A stretch of 64,000 nt of DNA from Pseudomonadota bacterium (GTDB lineage: Bacteria > Desulfobacterota > Binatia > Binatales > Binataceae). Numbering within the stretch: the stretch's first letter is position 1; every line of letters starts with the position of its first letter. The notes under the pieces were generated by a model. That model was not told the DNA's origin and searched no databases. It saw nothing but the letters and a program-made list of their open reading frames with translations. Shown here piece by piece: positions 54,441-62,552 of this stretch. The stretch spans positions 310,001-374,000 of the forward strand of contig JAJPKA010000020.1 in NCBI GenBank assembly GCA_021323945.1, read 5' to 3'. The position numbers and the translations under genes were made by a program.

Positions 54441-56015
54441 GTGCCATCCATCAGGCCCATAACGAAGCAGGCCTCGGCGACCCTCTGGCCGCGCCTTGCA
54501 GCGATTTCACTGTTTGTGTCGTTTACCCAAGAGCAACGAGATGCGTTCCTGCGTGCCTACGAGCAAGAACCTGAAATGGGCATACGGACCTTTGACGGCG
54601 GGGAAGCGGTTTGCCGCAAAGGAGAGTATGAGCTCGACCTCTGTCTGATACTCAGCGGTCGGGTCGACTTGTTCGAGGATGAGGCTCACGGTCGTGCTCA
54701 TGTTGCCAGTCTGGGTGCAGGAACATTTTACGGCGAACTTGGCGCACTCGGGGGCGTGCCCCGTTCGCTCGACGTAATTGCGGCCACTCAAACCGAGATC
54801 TTCTACATCCCGCGTCATGCACTTAAATATCTGGAAGTTAACTCGGAAGCCCGTTCGATACTGGCTGAGCGTTATCGCGAACGCGCCGTCGCCAGCTCGG
54901 CCGCAGAACTCGACTTGTTTCGAGGGGTGCCACCCGAATTCATCCAGCAACTCGTTCCTCGATGCGAAATCCTGCGATACGAACTGCGCGGAATTCCAAT
55001 CGTCACGCAAGGCGAACTGGGCGACGCACTATACATAGTGCGAGATGGTTTTCTTCAGGTTGCCCGGCGCGAGCCCGATGGAAGTGAAAAGGTCTTTGCC
55101 TACCTTCGCACCGGAGATTTCTTCGGCGAGATGGCGTTGTTCGAGACGGGGATTCGATGGTCGAGCGTGGTCACTGCTGGCAAATGCGAACTAATCAAGA
55201 TTCGCGGGGATGATTTTCTCGAGCTCTGTCGACGATTTCCCGCGATTGAGGTTGAAGTCCGAAAGATTATCAACCGCCGCAGGGAGCAGGAACGTTCCAT
55301 CACCCCTGAGCTCTCCGAGCTGCTCAAAAAGATGGGTCAACTGGGAGTTATCCAGGCCGACGCGCTTCTGGTGATGGATTTGGAACTGTGCATCAAATGC
55401 GACAATTGCGTGCGCGCCTGTGAGTCGCTGCATGGCAAAAGCCGATTGATCCGCAACGGCATTCAGTTAGGCAACTATCTCGTGCCCAGCGCCTGCCGCC
55501 ACTGTGATGATCCTAAGTGCATGAACGCCTGTCCCACTGGGGCGCTCAAGCGCCGGCCGGAAGGCGAGATCTATTTCGAATATGATATGTGTATCGGATG
55601 TGGTAACTGTGCGATCGCATGCCCTTACGATAACATCGCCATGATAGATACTCCGACCTTCGATCGCGCGCAGTTACGTAAGTCGCGAATCACCAACGAC
55701 CCCAGCTTCTTCCGTCCTTATCCTGTAGCGTCGCACGACGTTGCTGACGAAAGTTGGTTCAGGCGTTTGTTCGGCCGCATTCGCGGCAAGCATAGCCGCA
55801 AACCGGTTCAACTTGGAACCTCCGGTGCGCCGGGTCATGTACCGGTCGCCTATCCCATAAAGTGCGACCTCTGTGATGGTTTGCCGTTTATGGGCTGTGT
55901 TCATAGCTGTCCGACCGGCGCCGCCATGCGCATTGATCCAGCAACTTTGATCGAAGAGACCGGTGCGGTGAGTGCCGGTTCACGCGTACGGAAGGCCCGA
56001 GGGGGCAACGACTAA
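54441..56015 (+). CDS. Double cNMP-binding protein fused to four-cluster ferredoxin
   Basis: A 524-residue protein without signal peptide or membrane helix. Two cyclic-nucleotide-binding domains lie at about residues 45-150 (GAGTFYGELGALGGVPRSL) and 165-285 (RTGDFFGEMALFETGIRWS). There is no helix-turn-helix, so it is not a CRP-type regulator. Residues 310-500 form a DmsB/HybA-like ferredoxin with four cysteine groups: C317/320/323/327, C352/355/360/364, C384/387/390/394 and C475/478/486/490, enough for four 4Fe-4S clusters. It should transfer electrons in the cytoplasm under nucleotide control. The start is GTG at 54441. The stop overlaps the next frame by 44 bases if the GTG at 55972 is used there. 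Confidence 0.9.
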   Translation: MPSIRPITKQASATLWPRLAAISLFVSFTQEQRDAFLRAYEQEPEMGIRTFDGGEAVCRKGEYELDLCLILSGRVDLFEDEAHGRAHVASLGAGTFYGELGALGGVPRSLDVIAATQTEIFYIPRHALKYLEVNSEARSILAERYRERAVASSAAELDLFRGVPPEFIQQLVPRCEILRYELRGIPIVTQGELGDALYIVRDGFLQVARREPDGSEKVFAYLRTGDFFGEMALFETGIRWSSVVTAGKCELIKIRGDDFLELCRRFPAIEVEVRKIINRRREQERSITPELSELLKKMGQLGVIQADALLVMDLELCIKCDNCVRACESLHGKSRLIRNGIQLGNYLVPSACRHCDDPKCMNACPTGALKRRPEGEIYFEYDMCIGCGNCAIACPYDNIAMIDTPTFDRAQLRKSRITNDPSFFRPYPVASHDVADESWFRRLFGRIRGKHSRKPVQLGTSGAPGHVPVAYPIKCDLCDGLPFMGCVHSCPTGAAMRIDPATLIEETGAVSAGSRVRKARGGND

Positions 56016-57033
56016 GGGACCGGCGAAACGCGCGGCCTCAGGCGGTACGAACGCAGTGCCATTTACGAGTAGCTCCGAGCGAATCGAAGAGCAGGTTGAC
56101 CGGTTACCAGCTGACCGACCAACGACAAAGCCGAGCCGGGCCTCGTTGGGCGAGGCAGCGGCCAGGCGCCATAGTGCGCCGATCGCTTCGATGCTGATCT
56201 GGAGCCTGTTCTGCGGCTCCAGCGTTGTCGCGCTTTACAAGTTATTTGCAGGATGGGCCTCGCGGGCGGGAGCTTATCGCACCGGAATCCTTACGACGGG
56301 AATCTTCATGCTGGCCGCGCTGTACCCTGTACGCAAACAAGCCTTATGGTTGTCATTGCGCTATACGCGGTGGATCGCACGTTTGCCCCGCCCCCTGGGG
56401 GTTCGACTGCTGGTGCTGGACCGACTCGAAAGCTGGCGCATTGTGCACGTTTCCGCAGGTGTTTTCAGCTTGTTGCCATTTTGGTGGCATACACAGTTCG
56501 GCCCCCGTAGTCTTCTCGAACTCGTGCTTGAAGTGTTCGTGTTGGCACTGGCCGTCAGCGGTCTTCTGGGGACATTGATTGAGGATTTCCTGCCCGCGCG
56601 GATGTTGAAGTTGGGTAATCCAGAAGTCCGACTGGAAGACGTTGAAGCCGCGTCGCAGGAGCTGTACGTGCAAGCGGAAGAGCTGGTTCTCGGTCACTCC
56701 GAGCCGCTGGTTCATGCCTACCTTTCACTGCTACGGCCTATTGTGGCCGGCAATCAGCCTTCTCTGCGACTCTTGTGGGCCACGCTCTCTGGCATTAATC
56801 CAGCCTCGACCGTATGTAAGCCCGCCCGACTCATTGCAGACGGCTTCGGGGTCGAAGCAGCCGTTTTCCATCAATTGGTTGATATCGCCGAACGCAAGGT
56901 GGGGCTCGACCATAACCAATTTAATCTGAAGTTGAGCGGCGAATGGCTGCGGCTGCATCGCAGCCTTGCTATAGCTGTGCTTGTGCTGGTTGCCTTCCAC
57001 ATCACCGGTGTTCTCTATTTCGTGGGAATATGA
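55972..57033 (+). CDS. Membrane protein with two His pairs, cytochrome b-like
   Basis: Up to 353 residues; I do not recognise a named family. Predicted helices lie at about 70-92, 105-122, 155-172, 183-205 and 328-350. Two His pairs, H159/H173 and H329/H343, are each 14 residues apart, the spacing of haem ligands along helices in cytochrome b-type diheme proteins. The stretch 210-325 is soluble. The GTG at 55972 is only the furthest possible start; the first 65 residues are polar and may be untranslated, with a start nearer 56057 or later. Its TGA overlaps the ATG of the following gene (ATGA), so the two are translationally coupled. Confidence 0.7.
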   Translation: MPVHAYGRPEGATTKGPAKRAASGGTNAVPFTSSSERIEEQVDRLPADRPTTKPSRASLGEAAARRHSAPIASMLIWSLFCGSSVVALYKLFAGWASRAGAYRTGILTTGIFMLAALYPVRKQALWLSLRYTRWIARLPRPLGVRLLVLDRLESWRIVHVSAGVFSLLPFWWHTQFGPRSLLELVLEVFVLALAVSGLLGTLIEDFLPARMLKLGNPEVRLEDVEAASQELYVQAEELVLGHSEPLVHAYLSLLRPIVAGNQPSLRLLWATLSGINPASTVCKPARLIADGFGVEAAVFHQLVDIAERKVGLDHNQFNLKLSGEWLRLHRSLAIAVLVLVAFHITGVLYFVGI

Positions 57034-59351
57034 ACGTCCGCTGGGTTCTGGTGGCTTCGGCGATCGTCGGTGCCGTGGCCGCGTTGGCGGTGCTTGCGCC
57101 GCGCTCGAGCTATCAACCCGGCCCGTTATTGAAAGCGCACCAGCAGCTGATTACCGACTGCAACGCCTGTCACCGTCCATGGCGCGGGCCTTCGAATGCG
57201 GGCTGTGTAAATTGCCACGGTGAGCTGAGCGAAAACAATCCCCATACGGGGCTCGACGTCACCGACAAAGACGCCGGGCTTATGCCGGGGCACACGCTGG
57301 CGATGGACACCGCCCATAACCTCGAATGCCTCAGTTGCCACGGCGAACATCAAGGTCCAACGCCGAACATCGGCATGAGTGCTGGGTTCGCCTGCACATG
57401 GTGTCACAAACACCCAGCAATTCCGGCTGTGCCAGAGCATCAAGTTCACGTAATGGAACGGCAATTTTTTGTCAGGCACTTGTTCAGGCGCCCGTTCAGT
57501 CATTACGAGCATGAATTGTTAACCAAGTCGCATTATCCGCCGGTGGCGGGTGGGTTCAACTGTTCATCCTGTCATTTGGTGACGCCCGTGCCACCGGGGC
57601 GGAATGATCAGATGAGTTTCAAGTGGGCAGGATGCGCTGGAACAGGCTGCCATCTCGTCCCGCAAGACAGATTTATGCAGCTCTCACCGTCTCTTGGCCC
57701 TTCACCGGTCTCCATTCCCTACTCGAGCGTCGTCACGGTCAGACATATCAAGGCCGTCTTCGTTCATTCTGCAGGCCATCTCAAAACTGCTTGCGAACGG
57801 TGTCATTTCGAGATGAATAAGAGCCGCGATCCTGACGATCAAGCCTCGTTGGCGGTTAGTCGCTGCTTCGATTGCCATACGCACCGACCCGATAGCGGCG
57901 GAGACCAGATCGCGACCGGACCGATAAATTCCCGACAGGATCAGTCAACTGACCCGCAGACTGCAGCCAGGAAAGCTCGCGCGGTCCGACCAGCGAGGGG
58001 CGTGCCGCTGAATGCGGGTGCGAAAGTGCTCGCTTGCAGCCAGTGTCACCTGTTTCACGCGTACGGGGTGGTTCCCATACGTGACTTTCCCAATCCTGCG
58101 CCTCAGTTTCCACCAAATCGTCCTGACCATCTCAAGTTAACGGTCTATGTGCCGCGGTGGAGGTCTATCGACGGGAACTCTCGAATCCGGGCCGTCACCC
58201 TGGATGGCGTCGTGCTCTCACCCTGGTGGATGGGTATGGTCGCAATAGGTCTCGTAACTTATCAGTTCACCCGATATGTCAGGCATTTATCGCAGACGCA
58301 CAACTTTCACGAAGCGGCGCCCGACGTGGCGCCGCAGCGACCCAGGGAGGTCCCCGCGCTAGATGACACTTACCAGACGAGTATCAGAAACTTGTACATC
58401 GTCGGTGAGGCAGCGGGTACTGCCTCAATAAATCTCGCAATGCGTTCCGGTCGCCAGGTTATCGAAGCGATTGCAAGTCAGCTCCGGCCTTACCCCTCGT
58501 CGTCCCAACCAGACCTATACGATGTTGTAATCGTTGGTTGCGGGCCTGCGGGCTTGGGCGCGACCGCTACGGCGAAGGTCTTGGGTCTAAAATATGCAAC
58601 TCTGGAAAAGTTGACTCCCGCAAGCACGCTGCGATCATATCCGCGCGCCAAATTCGTGCAGGCAACGCCTATCGATCTGGCTGAGTACGGTTCGTTCTTC
58701 CTCGAAGGCGACAATTCACGCGAAGAGCTGATCCGCGAATGGGAAAAGATCATCGCTAAATTGCAACTTGTCATCAACGATCGTGAAGAAGTGACAGCTG
58801 TGATGCGTGAGCAGAACCACCTGCTTGTCCGGACTGCGCGCGGCAACTCGTACCGAGCAAGAGCTGTGGTGCTGGCAATCGGAGTTCGTGGGAATCCTCG
58901 TCATCTAAATCTGCCGGGAGAAGAGCCAGGTCGGGTATTTTACAACCTCATCGAACCAGAAGAGTTTACCGGGTGCCGGATTCTCGTGGTAGGAGGAGGT
59001 AACGCAGGGGCTGAGGCTGTCCGGGCTCTCGCTGATCGCCGGCTGGCCAATACGGTGAGCTATTGCTTCCGCTCCCCTGTCTTGACCAATGTGACACCGG
59101 AGAATGCTGACGCGATCGTCGCTCTGCAAAAGGCCAAGGCGATCTCAATCTATCCCGCGACCATCCTGACAGAAATACGACCTCAGAGCGTAGTCCTTGA
59201 GCCGCTGAAGCCGGCCAGCGGTGGAGTGTCGGCAGGGGCAATTGAACTCGCAAATGATTACATCTTCGCGATGATCGGCGCTGAACTACCTGTCGCATTT
59301 CTCAAGTCGATAGGTATCAAGATGGTGAGCAAAGGCCGGCTATATAGATAA
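57030..59351 (+). CDS. Nine-haem cytochrome c fused to FAD/NAD(P) reductase
   Basis: A 773-residue protein. An N-terminal helix (about 5-22) leads to a periplasmic cytochrome domain with eight CXXCH motifs (Cys44, 59, 100, 122, 178, 255, 279, 336) and one CX4CH (Cys202). A second helix lies at about 396-414. The cytoplasmic part is a thioredoxin-reductase/YpdA-like flavoprotein with FAD loop VVIVGCGPAGLGA (499-511) and NAD(P) loop VVGGGNAGAE (653-662), and no CxxC redox pair. A segment NLYIVGEAAG...INLAMRSGRQVIEA (454-480), which normally ends such flavoproteins, comes before the FAD loop instead. The ATG at 57030 overlaps the previous stop. The frame upstream to 56943 is inside the previous gene. 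Confidence 0.88.
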   Translation: MNVRWVLVASAIVGAVAALAVLAPRSSYQPGPLLKAHQQLITDCNACHRPWRGPSNAGCVNCHGELSENNPHTGLDVTDKDAGLMPGHTLAMDTAHNLECLSCHGEHQGPTPNIGMSAGFACTWCHKHPAIPAVPEHQVHVMERQFFVRHLFRRPFSHYEHELLTKSHYPPVAGGFNCSSCHLVTPVPPGRNDQMSFKWAGCAGTGCHLVPQDRFMQLSPSLGPSPVSIPYSSVVTVRHIKAVFVHSAGHLKTACERCHFEMNKSRDPDDQASLAVSRCFDCHTHRPDSGGDQIATGPINSRQDQSTDPQTAARKARAVRPARGVPLNAGAKVLACSQCHLFHAYGVVPIRDFPNPAPQFPPNRPDHLKLTVYVPRWRSIDGNSRIRAVTLDGVVLSPWWMGMVAIGLVTYQFTRYVRHLSQTHNFHEAAPDVAPQRPREVPALDDTYQTSIRNLYIVGEAAGTASINLAMRSGRQVIEAIASQLRPYPSSSQPDLYDVVIVGCGPAGLGATATAKVLGLKYATLEKLTPASTLRSYPRAKFVQATPIDLAEYGSFFLEGDNSREELIREWEKIIAKLQLVINDREEVTAVMREQNHLLVRTARGNSYRARAVVLAIGVRGNPRHLNLPGEEPGRVFYNLIEPEEFTGCRILVVGGGNAGAEAVRALADRRLANTVSYCFRSPVLTNVTPENADAIVALQKAKAISIYPATILTEIRPQSVVLEPLKPASGGVSAGAIELANDYIFAMIGAELPVAFLKSIGIKMVSKGRLYR

Positions 59352-59369: not shown

Positions 59370-59870
59370 CTACACGTGATTAATATCCAGCACTGATTCG
59401 ATCTCGTCATTGAGCACGATGATCTTTTTTCTGACGATCTTCGGTTGGTCTTTCTGAAACCGGAGTAGATGTTCATAAAAACCAAAATAGCTCGAACTTC
59501 GGCGTTGGAAGGGCCTGTAAATCCGAACCTGCCAGTGCGACGCCACGTGAGGCTCATCGGGGTCTGTGGCGTCGAGAAGGCGCACATTGGTGATGAAATG
59601 GCAGGTACGAATCAACGGATCAGATGCCAACGATTGGCCCGATTGTATGCGCCAGATTCGATCTTCCAAACCCGCACGGTTGTTGTAGTAAATCAAGGAA
59701 AGCTGGGACTGCGGGTCACTGGTCGGTGCCCGGCCGCCGTGCCATGCCGGTACCCAGAACTCTGCATCCTCCGCGTACAGCGCCAACCACTCAGCCCAAC
59801 GCTTTTCATCAAGATACGCTGCTTCTCGATAAAGCAGTTCGGCGCAACGATTCAGCACTTCGTTATTCAC
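59370..59870 (-). CDS. Aromatic ring-hydroxylating dioxygenase beta subunit
   Basis: A 166-residue small subunit of a Rieske dioxygenase, of the NTF2-like cystatin fold; it supports the alpha3beta3 structure. Features: LYREAAYLDEKRWAEWLALYAEDAEFWVPAW near the start (positions about 59735-59830), then IRTCHFITNVRL and the end KKIIVLNDEIESVLDINHV. The closest type by eye is benzoate/anthranilate dioxygenase BenB. It overlaps the alpha subunit gene by 8 bases. No ferredoxin or reductase gene follows; the stop converges with the multihaem gene 18 bases away. Confidence 0.93.
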   Translation of the reverse strand: MNNEVLNRCAELLYREAAYLDEKRWAEWLALYAEDAEFWVPAWHGGRAPTSDPQSQLSLIYYNNRAGLEDRIWRIQSGQSLASDPLIRTCHFITNVRLLDATDPDEPHVASHWQVRIYRPFQRRSSSYFGFYEHLLRFQKDQPKIVRKKIIVLNDEIESVLDINHV

Positions 59871-61263
59871 CGCTGTTACTCCCTGAACGCGCCAACCCGC
59901 CGTTCATCAATCTGAGCCACTGACGGTACTGGCCCTGGAAGATGACTTCGTCCCGAAAATCACTACTGCTCGATGCGGGCTGGATCTGGAGCGCCCTGGC
60001 TTCGGCGTCGGGCCCAGAGATCGCCCGGCAAGCCCCGCGCACGTAGCCCTGCTGCCAGCGCACCAATCGGCCGCGGTATCCCTCCTGACAGGCCTCGAAT
60101 GCCGCCAGATCATCAGGAGTGCCAATGCCGCTGGCATTGAAGAAGTCCTCATATTGCCGCAGGCGATGAGCTCGGGACTCGGGCTTTTCCCCGATTGGCG
60201 CAATGCAATAAGTCGAGACTCGAGTCTTATCCACTGCCAATGGGTGAATGACGCGAATCTGCGTCGAAGTCTGATCCATCAGGAAAACATTAGGATATAC
60301 CAGTAGATTACGCACTCGATCCATCATCCAACGAGCTCGGTGCTCGCCGAATTTGGCCACAAACTCAGCGCGTCGGTCGTAAAGCGGGCGGCTTGCCGGA
60401 TTGGGGTAATCGATCCACAAAAGGCTGTGTCCATTTCCCAGGTCGTAACAACCGTTGCCCAGCTCCGGGGCCGCCAGGCGCCCCACGTCAAGTGCCCGCA
60501 CTGAGTCTTTGCCCGAGTTCATGCGCCGCTGAATGACTCCCGCAAAAGTGCGATGCACGATGTCGAAATGATAGCCGTCCACACCGTTTTCGACCTGCAA
60601 TTTCCAGTTGCCTGCATACGTGTAGTCTGCACTGCCTGTTACTACTTCCAGACCTTCCGGCGCCTGATCGACGATCATGTCGATAAAGGTCCGTGCCGCT
60701 CCGAGATTCGTTTCGAGATCGCACACCGCGGGGTTGAGACTGCCGAAAATGAATCCGCGATAATTACCCAGACGCGGGACCCGTTTTAGCCCGTGATCGA
60801 GATGAGAGAAGCCGGTCGGATAGGCACCGCTGGCCTCATCCTTGATGTTGACCAACATGCCGTTATTGCTGAAACACCACCCGTGGTAGGGGCAGGTTAG
60901 AATCTTCCGATGACCGCTCCTCTCCACGCAGAGTCGCGCGCCCCGATGAGGGCATGTATTGATGAAGCCACCGACTTCGCCATGTTCGTCGCGCATGAGG
61001 ATGATCGGCTGACGTCCGATGGTAGTGGTTAAAAAATCGTGCGGCCGGGGCAACTGACTCTCGTGCGCCAAGTAGATCCAAGTGCCCTCGAAGATGTATT
61101 GCATCTCGAGCTCAAACAGACCGGGATCGGTGAATACCGCCCGATCAACTGTGAACATTCCTTCCCCGTCGACGACATAGTCGTCGAAGCCACTCGCGCG
61201 ATAGAGCTCTCTGAAGCCTAACGATTGGGGTCGGTCCAACGCACCAGCAGTTGTGGTCTCCAT
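59863..61263 (-). CDS. Aromatic ring-hydroxylating dioxygenase alpha subunit (BenA-like)
   Basis: A 466-residue Rieske non-haem iron oxygenase large subunit. The Rieske 2Fe-2S site is C104-P-H106 and C124-P-Y-H127 (NTCPHRGARLC, LTCPYHGWCF). The mononuclear iron site has ENGVDGYHFDIVH with H232 and H237, plus the bridging Asp229. Length and motif spacing fit the benzoate/toluate/anthranilate group, which cis-dihydroxylates aromatic acids. The beta subunit follows with overlapping frames. Electrons must come from a reductase coded elsewhere. Confidence 0.95.
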   Translation of the reverse strand: METTTAGALDRPQSLGFRELYRASGFDDYVVDGEGMFTVDRAVFTDPGLFELEMQYIFEGTWIYLAHESQLPRPHDFLTTTIGRQPIILMRDEHGEVGGFINTCPHRGARLCVERSGHRKILTCPYHGWCFSNNGMLVNIKDEASGAYPTGFSHLDHGLKRVPRLGNYRGFIFGSLNPAVCDLETNLGAARTFIDMIVDQAPEGLEVVTGSADYTYAGNWKLQVENGVDGYHFDIVHRTFAGVIQRRMNSGKDSVRALDVGRLAAPELGNGCYDLGNGHSLLWIDYPNPASRPLYDRRAEFVAKFGEHRARWMMDRVRNLLVYPNVFLMDQTSTQIRVIHPLAVDKTRVSTYCIAPIGEKPESRAHRLRQYEDFFNASGIGTPDDLAAFEACQEGYRGRLVRWQQGYVRGACRAISGPDAEARALQIQPASSSSDFRDEVIFQGQYRQWLRLMNGGLARSGSNSGE

Positions 61264-61343
61264 GCCAACTCTCCTATCTATCCTTTATCCCCGCGGCTGG
61301 TTCTGCCCGCAGGCTTGCCGTCGAAGGCCGGCGTCCGGTGGGC

Positions 61344-62552
61344 CTAGGTATCCAAACCTTTTACAAAGCCGGCGACGGTGTTGTGATGATGGACGATCAA
61401 GGACTCCAGGGTGGGGGATAGTGTCATGAATGCCATCACGCCGGATCGCTGAGCGGCATGTGTGCTTTCGATAGTGCTAAGGTCCTCTCGGATCGCGTCT
61501 CGCATTGCAACCTTGGAGTACTCCTGGGCGATTCTCACTGCGGGGCTTGTGGTGCGTCGCTGGTAGTACTTCACCTGCCAGTTGGTGTGATCCACGTCGA
61601 TCGGCCAGAACTCATGACACAACATCCAGCCGTCCCCCAGGAACAGATGGAAGTTTGGGAAAATCACGAACTCGTCAAATACCCAGTTGTCTCGGTTCTC
61701 GACATTCAAGGAAGGCCACCGGCGATTCGGCAACTGGTCGGTATTGTTCACGTTGAGGAAGGCGGCGGAGCCGAGTTTAAAAGCCAAGGCCTCGGCAGGT
61801 TTCGGTTTATGATGCAGATTTTGGTAATAAGTGAGTTTGCAGTGTCGTCCTAGCGGCTGAGCACTTGGCACTATAGGGTCTGCCCGAAAGTCTGGTATCG
61901 AACGTCGGTGGACCGCCAAGACGTGATAGGCCTCGATAAAGGCGTCCTGAAAAGTCTTCCAGTTCGCAGTTAAAGTTGCACCCCACCAGCCGCTCAGCTC
62001 CATCTCGGCGAAAGGAAATCCATCGAGCATCCCGCTAATCGGTTCAAGGTATTTGCGTAAACTGGTTTCTGGTGAGGTTTGCAGGTGAACGAAGATGAAA
62101 CCCTCCCAGACGTCCAGTGCGAGTGGAATCAAGCCCAGTTGCGCTCTATCGCAGCCGCGAAACTCACTCTCGAGAGGAATACCCACCAACGCTCCTTCAC
62201 AATCATAGGTCCAGCCATGAAAGCCGCAGGTAAAGGCGCGCGCGGAGCCGTGGGGTTGGTTGACCAGCCGATTGCCGCGATGGCGGCAAAGATTGTGAAA
62301 GGCGCGCAGCTGTCCATCGCGTCCGCGGACGACCAGGACCGAGGTGCCCAAGACCTCCAGCCGGCGGACGAAGAAATCACCCGGATTAGGAACTGCTTCA
62401 GCTCGGCCGATCTGTAGCCAGACGCGTCTGAAAATTCTCTGACGCTCAAGCTCAAAATATTGGGCTGAAATGTTGGGGCCAACAGGAACATGTTGCGGTC
62501 CCGGCAAAGGCTCGGATCCGTCGCTGTTGTTGACATCTATTTCTTCAACCAT
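61344..62552 (-). CDS. Second Rieske oxygenase alpha subunit
   Basis: A 402-residue Rieske oxygenase. The 2Fe-2S site is C89-R-H91 and C109-G-F-H112 (NLCRHRGNRLV, FTCGFHGWTYDCEG), and the mononuclear iron motif is FIEAYHVLAVHR. The sequence differs from the BenA-like neighbour (other linker, no adjacent beta subunit), and resembles homotrimeric enzymes of the phenylpropionate/choline/steroid type. It lies 80 bases upstream of the BenA-like gene on the same strand. Its substrate is unknown. Confidence 0.93.
   Translation of the reverse strand: MVEEIDVNNSDGSEPLPGPQHVPVGPNISAQYFELERQRIFRRVWLQIGRAEAVPNPGDFFVRRLEVLGTSVLVVRGRDGQLRAFHNLCRHRGNRLVNQPHGSARAFTCGFHGWTYDCEGALVGIPLESEFRGCDRAQLGLIPLALDVWEGFIFVHLQTSPETSLRKYLEPISGMLDGFPFAEMELSGWWGATLTANWKTFQDAFIEAYHVLAVHRRSIPDFRADPIVPSAQPLGRHCKLTYYQNLHHKPKPAEALAFKLGSAAFLNVNNTDQLPNRRWPSLNVENRDNWVFDEFVIFPNFHLFLGDGWMLCHEFWPIDVDHTNWQVKYYQRRTTSPAVRIAQEYSKVAMRDAIREDLSTIESTHAAQRSGVMAFMTLSPTLESLIVHHHNTVAGFVKGLDT

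Follow-up and report, generated by a model that had tools for sequence, protein, structure and literature searches.

The 64,000-nucleotide stretch of DNA considered here (viz. positions 310,001 to 374,000 of contig JAJPKA010000020.1 in the assembly GCA_021323945.1, from a bacterium of the family Binataceae), which is referred to below as the window and numbered from its first letter, contains at positions 54441-59351 three neighbouring plus-strand genes, designated P1, P2 and P3. P1 encodes a protein with two cyclic nucleotide (cNMP)-binding domains and a ferredoxin part, P2 a membrane protein of the diheme b type, and P3 a protein in which haem c sites are joined to a flavin adenine dinucleotide (FAD) domain. 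In an earlier interpretation based on the DNA letters (the sequence-only reading) these genes were described as consecutive, with an ATGA overlap of the last two, and the coordinates of the open reading frames (ORFs) agree with this, as the ATG of P3 (57030) sits inside the stop codon of P2. The likely start of P2 is the GTG at 56056 and not 55972, based on the listed in-frame starts and a by-eye comparison with one relative (L067). The residue numbers given for P2 count from 56110. The features of the locus are collected in Table 1.

Table 1. Features of the P1-P2-P3 locus (window positions)
Feature	Positions	Strand	Basis
P1: two cNMP-binding domains and four-cluster ferredoxin, 524 aa, predicted cytoplasmic	54441..56015	+	ORF list, domain profiles, alignment
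cNMP-binding domain 1	54585..54860 (limits approximate)	+	Phosphate-cassette Glu99, Arg108
cNMP-binding domain 2	54933..55295 (limits approximate)	+	Glu230, Arg239
Ferredoxin part, 16 Cys in four [4Fe-4S] sets, DmsB/DsrO/FdhB-like	55368..55925	+	Profiles, alignment
P2: five-helix diheme-b-type membrane protein	56056..57033	+	Open frame from 55972, likely start GTG 56056
First HX13H pair, His113/His127, helix 3	56446..56490	+	Invariant 45/45
Second HX13H pair, His283/His297, helix 5	56956..57000	+	Invariant 45/45
P3: anchored nonahaem c and FAD/NAD(P) domain, 773 aa	57030..59351	+	ORF, profiles, motif scan
Nine haem c sites: eight CX2CH and one CX4CH at 57633	57159..58049	+	Motif scan
Predicted second membrane helix of P3	58221..58286	+	Model helix 398-419; weak hydropathy
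TrxR-family C-terminal FAD-binding motif ahead of Rossmann core	58362..58454	+	Profile/sequence comparison with parts exchanged
YpdA/TrxR-like FAD and NAD(P) domain without CXXC	58347..59348	+	Profiles, Foldseek, motif scan

The protein P1 is matched by PF00027 in two stretches and by families of the Fer4 type, and its 16 conserved cysteines bear out the earlier description of the first gene as combining two cNMP-binding domains with four 4Fe-4S groups. Twelve of these cysteines are kept in all 90 aligned sequences and the remaining four in 85-87 of them. PF13247 matches P1, which lies upstream of P2, at E 3e-10, and there are partial matches to TIGR02951 (DmsB-type) and DsrO profiles with scores far under the family cut-offs. 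In known members of the cNMP-binding family, a Glu and an Arg of the phosphate cassette hold the phosphate, and the window P1 has the two residues in each of its cassettes. In cassette 1 the Glu is found in 88/90 and the Arg in 77/90 P1 sequences (both in 18/18 sequences from the window's family; 70/72 and 59/72, respectively, in the others), and in cassette 2 the corresponding counts are 71/90 and 54/90. Since these pocket residues are retained, gating by a cNMP is plausible. No helix-turn-helix (HTH) family matched P1 at E 0.1 in the profile scan, which sets it apart from the CRP/FNR transcription factors, and the domain profile scan revealed neither a kinase nor an HTH or output domain in any of the three proteins, as expected from the earlier statement that none of them carries a DNA-binding domain.

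For P2, the two pairs of histidines noted previously for their 14-residue spacing proved to be invariant in 45/45 relatives, with identities down to 14%. Each pair forms part of a WX3HX13H motif (viz. W109-H113-H127 and W279-H283-H297), in which W279 is invariant and W109 is found in at least 90% of the 45 sequences, and an SGXXG motif is present on the fourth helix (model helix 135-165), with S150 in at least 90% of these sequences and G151 and G154 invariant. The mean pLDDT of the AlphaFold model of P2 is 90.5. Its comparison with cytochrome b6 (7zxy_A) by VIA-align gave a Z of 7.1 over 140 aligned residues with a root-mean-square deviation of 7.7, which is under the level trusted for helical bundles; helical sensor domains reached Z values of up to 9.1 and were judged uninformative as fold relatives. 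PF01794 (ferric reductase type) gave no match in the profile scan, and a search of plasmids with P2 was likewise negative. A P2-like paralogue of 262 aa, with both HX13H pairs and without P1 or P3 alongside, is encoded in the same genome at G000:C1:134716-135219 (L098:7594-8379, minus strand), and the ORFs flanking it resemble, by eye, an oxidase subunit II and a b-type protein.

The third protein, in agreement with the description of its gene as coding for haem c and an FAD domain, carries nine haem c sites and a YpdA-like domain. The single CX4CH site is CX2CH in four relatives (L079-L082), and on this basis all nine haem sites are taken as real. P3 has an N-terminal helix, and a second one, at 398-419, is seen in the model although it is missed by a simple hydropathy cut-off. 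As c-haems are attached outside the cytoplasm, these two helices would place the haems of P3 in the periplasm and its flavin domain in the cytoplasm. The latter is matched by Pyr_redox_3 (E 3e-27) and by the YpdA-like profile TIGR04018 (E 1e-34), and its best Foldseek match is YpdA (7apr, E 1e-18). However, the motif scan found no CXXC in the flavin part, so that it lacks the redox pair of thioredoxin reductase (TrxR), and the TIGR04018 score of 119.8 bits against a cut-off of 339.9 does not assign it to the YpdA bacillithiol disulfide reductases. The TrxR-type C-terminal FAD motif (LDDTYQTSIRNLYIVGEAAG) precedes the Rossmann core in P3. When the two parts were exchanged, the YpdA profile was matched over positions 1-312 of 316 versus 1-263 before, with the score going from 124 to 125 bits, and against the sequence of the YpdA structure 7a7b the exchanged domain gave 71.5 bits versus 65.2 for whole P3. 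Despite the small gains in score, the gain in coverage argues for a circular permutation of the flavin domain. In the proteobacterial relatives, where the flavin domain is fused to P1, it has the usual, unpermuted order.

The P1-P2-P3 system is real and conserved. In a survey of 148 genomes of the class (P1 threshold E 1e-30), P1 was found in 24 and P3 in 21, and within the window's family the two are present in exactly the same 16 genomes; the P1-P2-P3 order is retained across the genera of this family while the flanking genes vary. When P1-like proteins were sought with an alignment profile in genome samples around named relatives, they were found in 18/369 genomes from the class of Tahibacter aquaticus, in 34/297 from the phylum of an Acidobacteria record and in 12/288 from the phylum of a Verrucomicrobiaceae record. 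The neighbourhood counts are based on the 76 of 99 P1 loci that are flanked on each side by 4 kb or more (the 23 shorter loci were dropped), pooled from the family, class, gamma-type, acidobacterial and verrucomicrobial samples, with the genes at each locus picked by profile matches; L100, a duplicate of L080, was excluded from these counts, and from one set of 80 loci L100-L117 were mapped and L100-L110 used further, L111-L179 matching mainly the cyclic nucleotide-binding (CNB) part. P2 lies within 4 kb downstream of P1, or is fused to it, at 63/76 loci and upstream at none of the 76, and a cytochrome with at least 7 haem motifs lies within 4 kb downstream at 68/76 and upstream at 10/76. Both partners are found downstream of P1 at 62/76 loci, and all 12 loci of the window's family show the order P1-P2-multihaem; the exceptions lacking one or both partners are genuine and include L089, L090, L105, L110, L239 and L241. 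The sequence-only reading had proposed that the three genes form one system, and had named homologues occurring mostly alone, in a gene-neighbourhood survey, as the result that would speak against it; they clearly do not occur in this manner, and the proposal is upheld by the shared order and by the fusions described below. Two further observations concern the composition of such loci. At L093, L094 and L095, where P1 is missing, proteins with Fer4 and permuted FAD domains are encoded next to or near cytochromes with 10-18 haem motifs, and at L078 (G327:C123:9604-11184) an extra copy of P1 with an in-frame TGA lies directly upstream of the intact P1.

P2 is fused to P1 at 17 acidobacterial loci out of the 99. 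The flavin domain is fused to P1 at 30 of the 99 and, among the 86 multihaem proteins lying nearest downstream, to 27. Since proteins that are adjacent in one clade and joined in a single chain in another are usually in contact, these fusions are the best evidence for a single complex. The flavin domain is absent from the loci of some relatives, and it may thus be optional, as one of several entries for electrons. FHA domains are present on 40 of the 86 nearest downstream multihaem proteins and on none in the window's family; at L084:10988-14977, L237:6592-8274, L269:11813-15085 and other places they form the N-terminal part of decahaem or FAD-octahaem proteins. At L263:13931-16294, a single chain with FAD, FHA-type and 2Fe-2S domains is encoded near a P1-P2-decahaem set, and at L238:11720-16892 genes for a CHASE2 class III cyclase and FecR are found just upstream of those for a FAD-CNB-Fer4 protein, P2 and a decahaem protein. 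A count of class III cyclase domains in the window's own genome gave five.

Based on these results, it is quite probable that P1, P2 and P3 form one transmembrane electron-transfer complex, and the explanation which we favour as likely is that of an inner-membrane redox complex with the route FAD to Fe-S to haem b to haem c and a switch of the cNMP type. In such a complex NAD(P)H would exchange electrons with the cytoplasmic flavin domain of P3, the four [4Fe-4S] clusters of P1 would relay them to the b haem on the cytoplasmic side of P2, the two stacked b haems of P2 would span the membrane, and the nine periplasmic c haems of P3 would take the electrons onward. The flow could be in either direction, viz. 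from NAD(P)H to the periplasm, or as electron uptake leading to NAD(P)+. A path from flavin and Fe-S through haem b to haem c had been suggested before, and the anatomy of the genes supports it. The cNMP-type domains of P1, set against the ferredoxin arm, would switch this path allosterically, and their putative control of it is what makes the system interesting; that a cyclic nucleotide directly controls the complex is possible, though somewhat less likely than not.

A number of observations weigh against parts of this explanation. The model of P2 has no significant match in the PDB by Foldseek (best E 0.65), and the model of P3 is of poor quality in its haem part (mean pLDDT 57.8). The flavin domain is near the locus in only 26 of 36 acidobacterial loci, and fusion to FAD is seen at none of the 12 verrucomicrobial loci. 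In cassette 2, the Arg is lost in 5/18 sequences of the window's family and in 31/72 others, and the Glu in 19/72 others, and hence not every cNMP domain is able to bind a nucleotide in the usual way. Cyclase genes occur at about 5 of 103 loci, with one more weak case (L233), which is little above a rough expectation, and as the adjacency of cyclases lacks a proper background it is not counted as evidence for cNMP gating. It is possible, if less likely than not, that the conduit is real but that its CNB domains are structural, serving in dimerisation or in docking of the ferredoxin arm, or that they sense a signal other than a cNMP; the degradation of cassette 2 in many relatives and the small number of loci with adjacent cyclase genes would fit with this, but the retention of the cassette 1 Glu and Arg, throughout the window's family and in most other sequences, exceeds what a pure scaffold needs.

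Other alternatives concern the route of the electrons. In a quinone-linked module, P2 would exchange electrons with quinone and the flavin would be a side entry, for which one may cite the quinone-active cytochrome b proposed by He et al. (PMC5566968) and the fact that the flavin domain is not always near the locus. However, the haem protein of the window's family has the flavin domain in the same chain, and the Fe-S arm is never missing there; we regard this alternative as rather unlikely. Less likely still is a role as a redox sensor in the membrane instead of a bulk path, with haems and flavin reading the periplasmic redox state and CNB and FHA domains passing on the signal. The frequency of FHA on the downstream multihaem proteins and the CHASE2-cyclase and FecR genes in the same gene run at L238 are in its favour, but the three genes lack a kinase, HTH or output domain, a wire of 9-10 haems with four clusters and a diheme b exceeds the needs of a sensor, and in some relatives there are extra multihaem proteins among the neighbours. 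That the locus is a chance neighbourhood of three unrelated redox genes is refuted by their occurrence in the same 16 genomes, by the conserved order and by the fusions, which makes it extremely improbable.

The genes flanking the operon code for an RRM protein and for Rieske oxygenases. The latter adjoin it on the minus strand (window 59370-62552), where two alpha genes and one beta gene of Rieske ring-hydroxylating oxygenases are found, and they are not conserved with the operon. The ORF list shows no molybdoenzyme gene beside P1 within the window, and neither it nor the domain profiles revealed a porin candidate among the ORFs flanking the operon. A promoter and terminator scan of the locus gave sites no more numerous than in shuffles.

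The control of respiratory and extracellular electron-transfer chains is generally attributed for the most part to gene expression and to the supply of substrates. The presence of versions of this putative wire in several bacterial phyla, together with sensor domains, raises the possibility of a direct switching of electron flow by second messengers, and a conserved wire with built-in cNMP-type and FHA domains across clades would make such direct and fast control testable. Tentatively, one may envisage a multi-phylum family of second-messenger-gated conduits, in which cNMP (through P1), and often phosphothreonine/FHA signals, would switch the flow between a periplasmic multihaem wire and either NAD(P)H or the Fe-S pool of the cytoplasm, directly and without transcription. 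If this is true, the gated conduit would represent the electronic counterpart of a cyclic-nucleotide-gated channel.

In comparison with known systems, P3 shares its FAD and NAD(P) domain with the YpdA/Bdr and TrxR-like flavoproteins, and differs from them by the front-shifted FAD motif, the lack of CXXC and the fusion to haem c. P1 shares the 16-Cys four-cluster pattern with subunits of the DmsB/FdhB/DsrO type, from which the fusion to two cNMP-binding domains distinguishes it; with the CRP/PKA-type cNMP-binding proteins it has in common the two PF00027 domains and the cassette Glu and Arg, whereas in place of a DNA-binding or kinase part a ferredoxin is joined to them. NADPH oxidase and ferric reductase, in which a cytoplasmic flavin and two b haems on HX13H motifs carry electrons across the membrane, resemble the proposed P1-P2-P3 path in their working principle (flavin, two b haems, membrane crossing), but the present proteins have another flavin family, an added Fe-S arm and a c-haem wire.

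The closest comparison is with the putative conduits PCC3 and PCC4 of He et al. 2017 (PMC5566968), a paper in which NADPH oxidase/ferric reductase is also named. As described there, PCC3 and PCC4 share a conserved inner-membrane protein (IMP) of about 300 residues and five helices, of which the third and fifth bear WX3HX13H and the fourth SGXXG. The IMP gene of PCC4 subgroup II is immediately preceded by an Fe-S (pfam13247) gene, and PCC4 clusters include a porin gene and three multihaem cytochromes with 4, 5 and 10 sites. By this motif description P2 matches the published signature in size, helices and both motifs, and P1 corresponds to the upstream Fe-S gene. However, the window unit has no porin, its nine-site P3 is the sole cytochrome alongside in place of the 4/5/10-haem set, and this haem protein carries a flavin domain. 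Due to the absence of a porin and of extra cytochromes the unit is not PCC4 as defined; the fit of P2 to the IMP signature and the Fe-S gene upstream indicate a porin-less variant of such an inner-membrane module, and it would represent a compact relative of this half of the PCC3/PCC4-type clusters. L237, in turn, resembles a whole PCC4-like cluster, with a 5-haem gene, an unassigned one for 542 aa, two 4-haem genes, and P1-like, P2 and 10-haem genes. In the window's own genome, MtrB_PioB (PF11854) had no match at E 0.001, although this family need not cover the PCC porins, and in the same search for outer-membrane conduits PF09699 and PF14537 had none at E 0.001; as PF14537 misses P3 itself, other multihaem proteins in this genome are not excluded.

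He et al. model the IMP as a quinone-active cytochrome b (PMC5566968), and in their passages on PCC3 the Gallionellaceae papers (PMC12442390, PMC10734462) still list its inner-membrane protein without a biochemical role. A flavin and Fe-S arm behind this otherwise unexplained protein is a candidate answer to how the conduits are connected with the cytoplasm. The term "cyclic nucleotide" is absent from the main text of PMC5566968, a check that leaves aside its supplementary domain figure, and a literature search, to which most subscription journals did not contribute, gave no paper joining cyclic nucleotide binding, a multihaem cytochrome and a P2-type membrane protein, nor one in which cyclic-nucleotide domains are named for clusters of this kind. 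In respect of novelty the sequence-only reading needs some correction, since PMC5566968 already describes, for PCC3/PCC4, an inner-membrane protein carrying two WX3HX13H motifs, with an Fe-S gene preceding it in PCC4 subgroup II. What seems to be new here is, first, the conserved pair of cNMP domains, often accompanied in relatives by FHA domains on the cytochrome, and second, the fusion of a permuted flavin domain with the haem protein.

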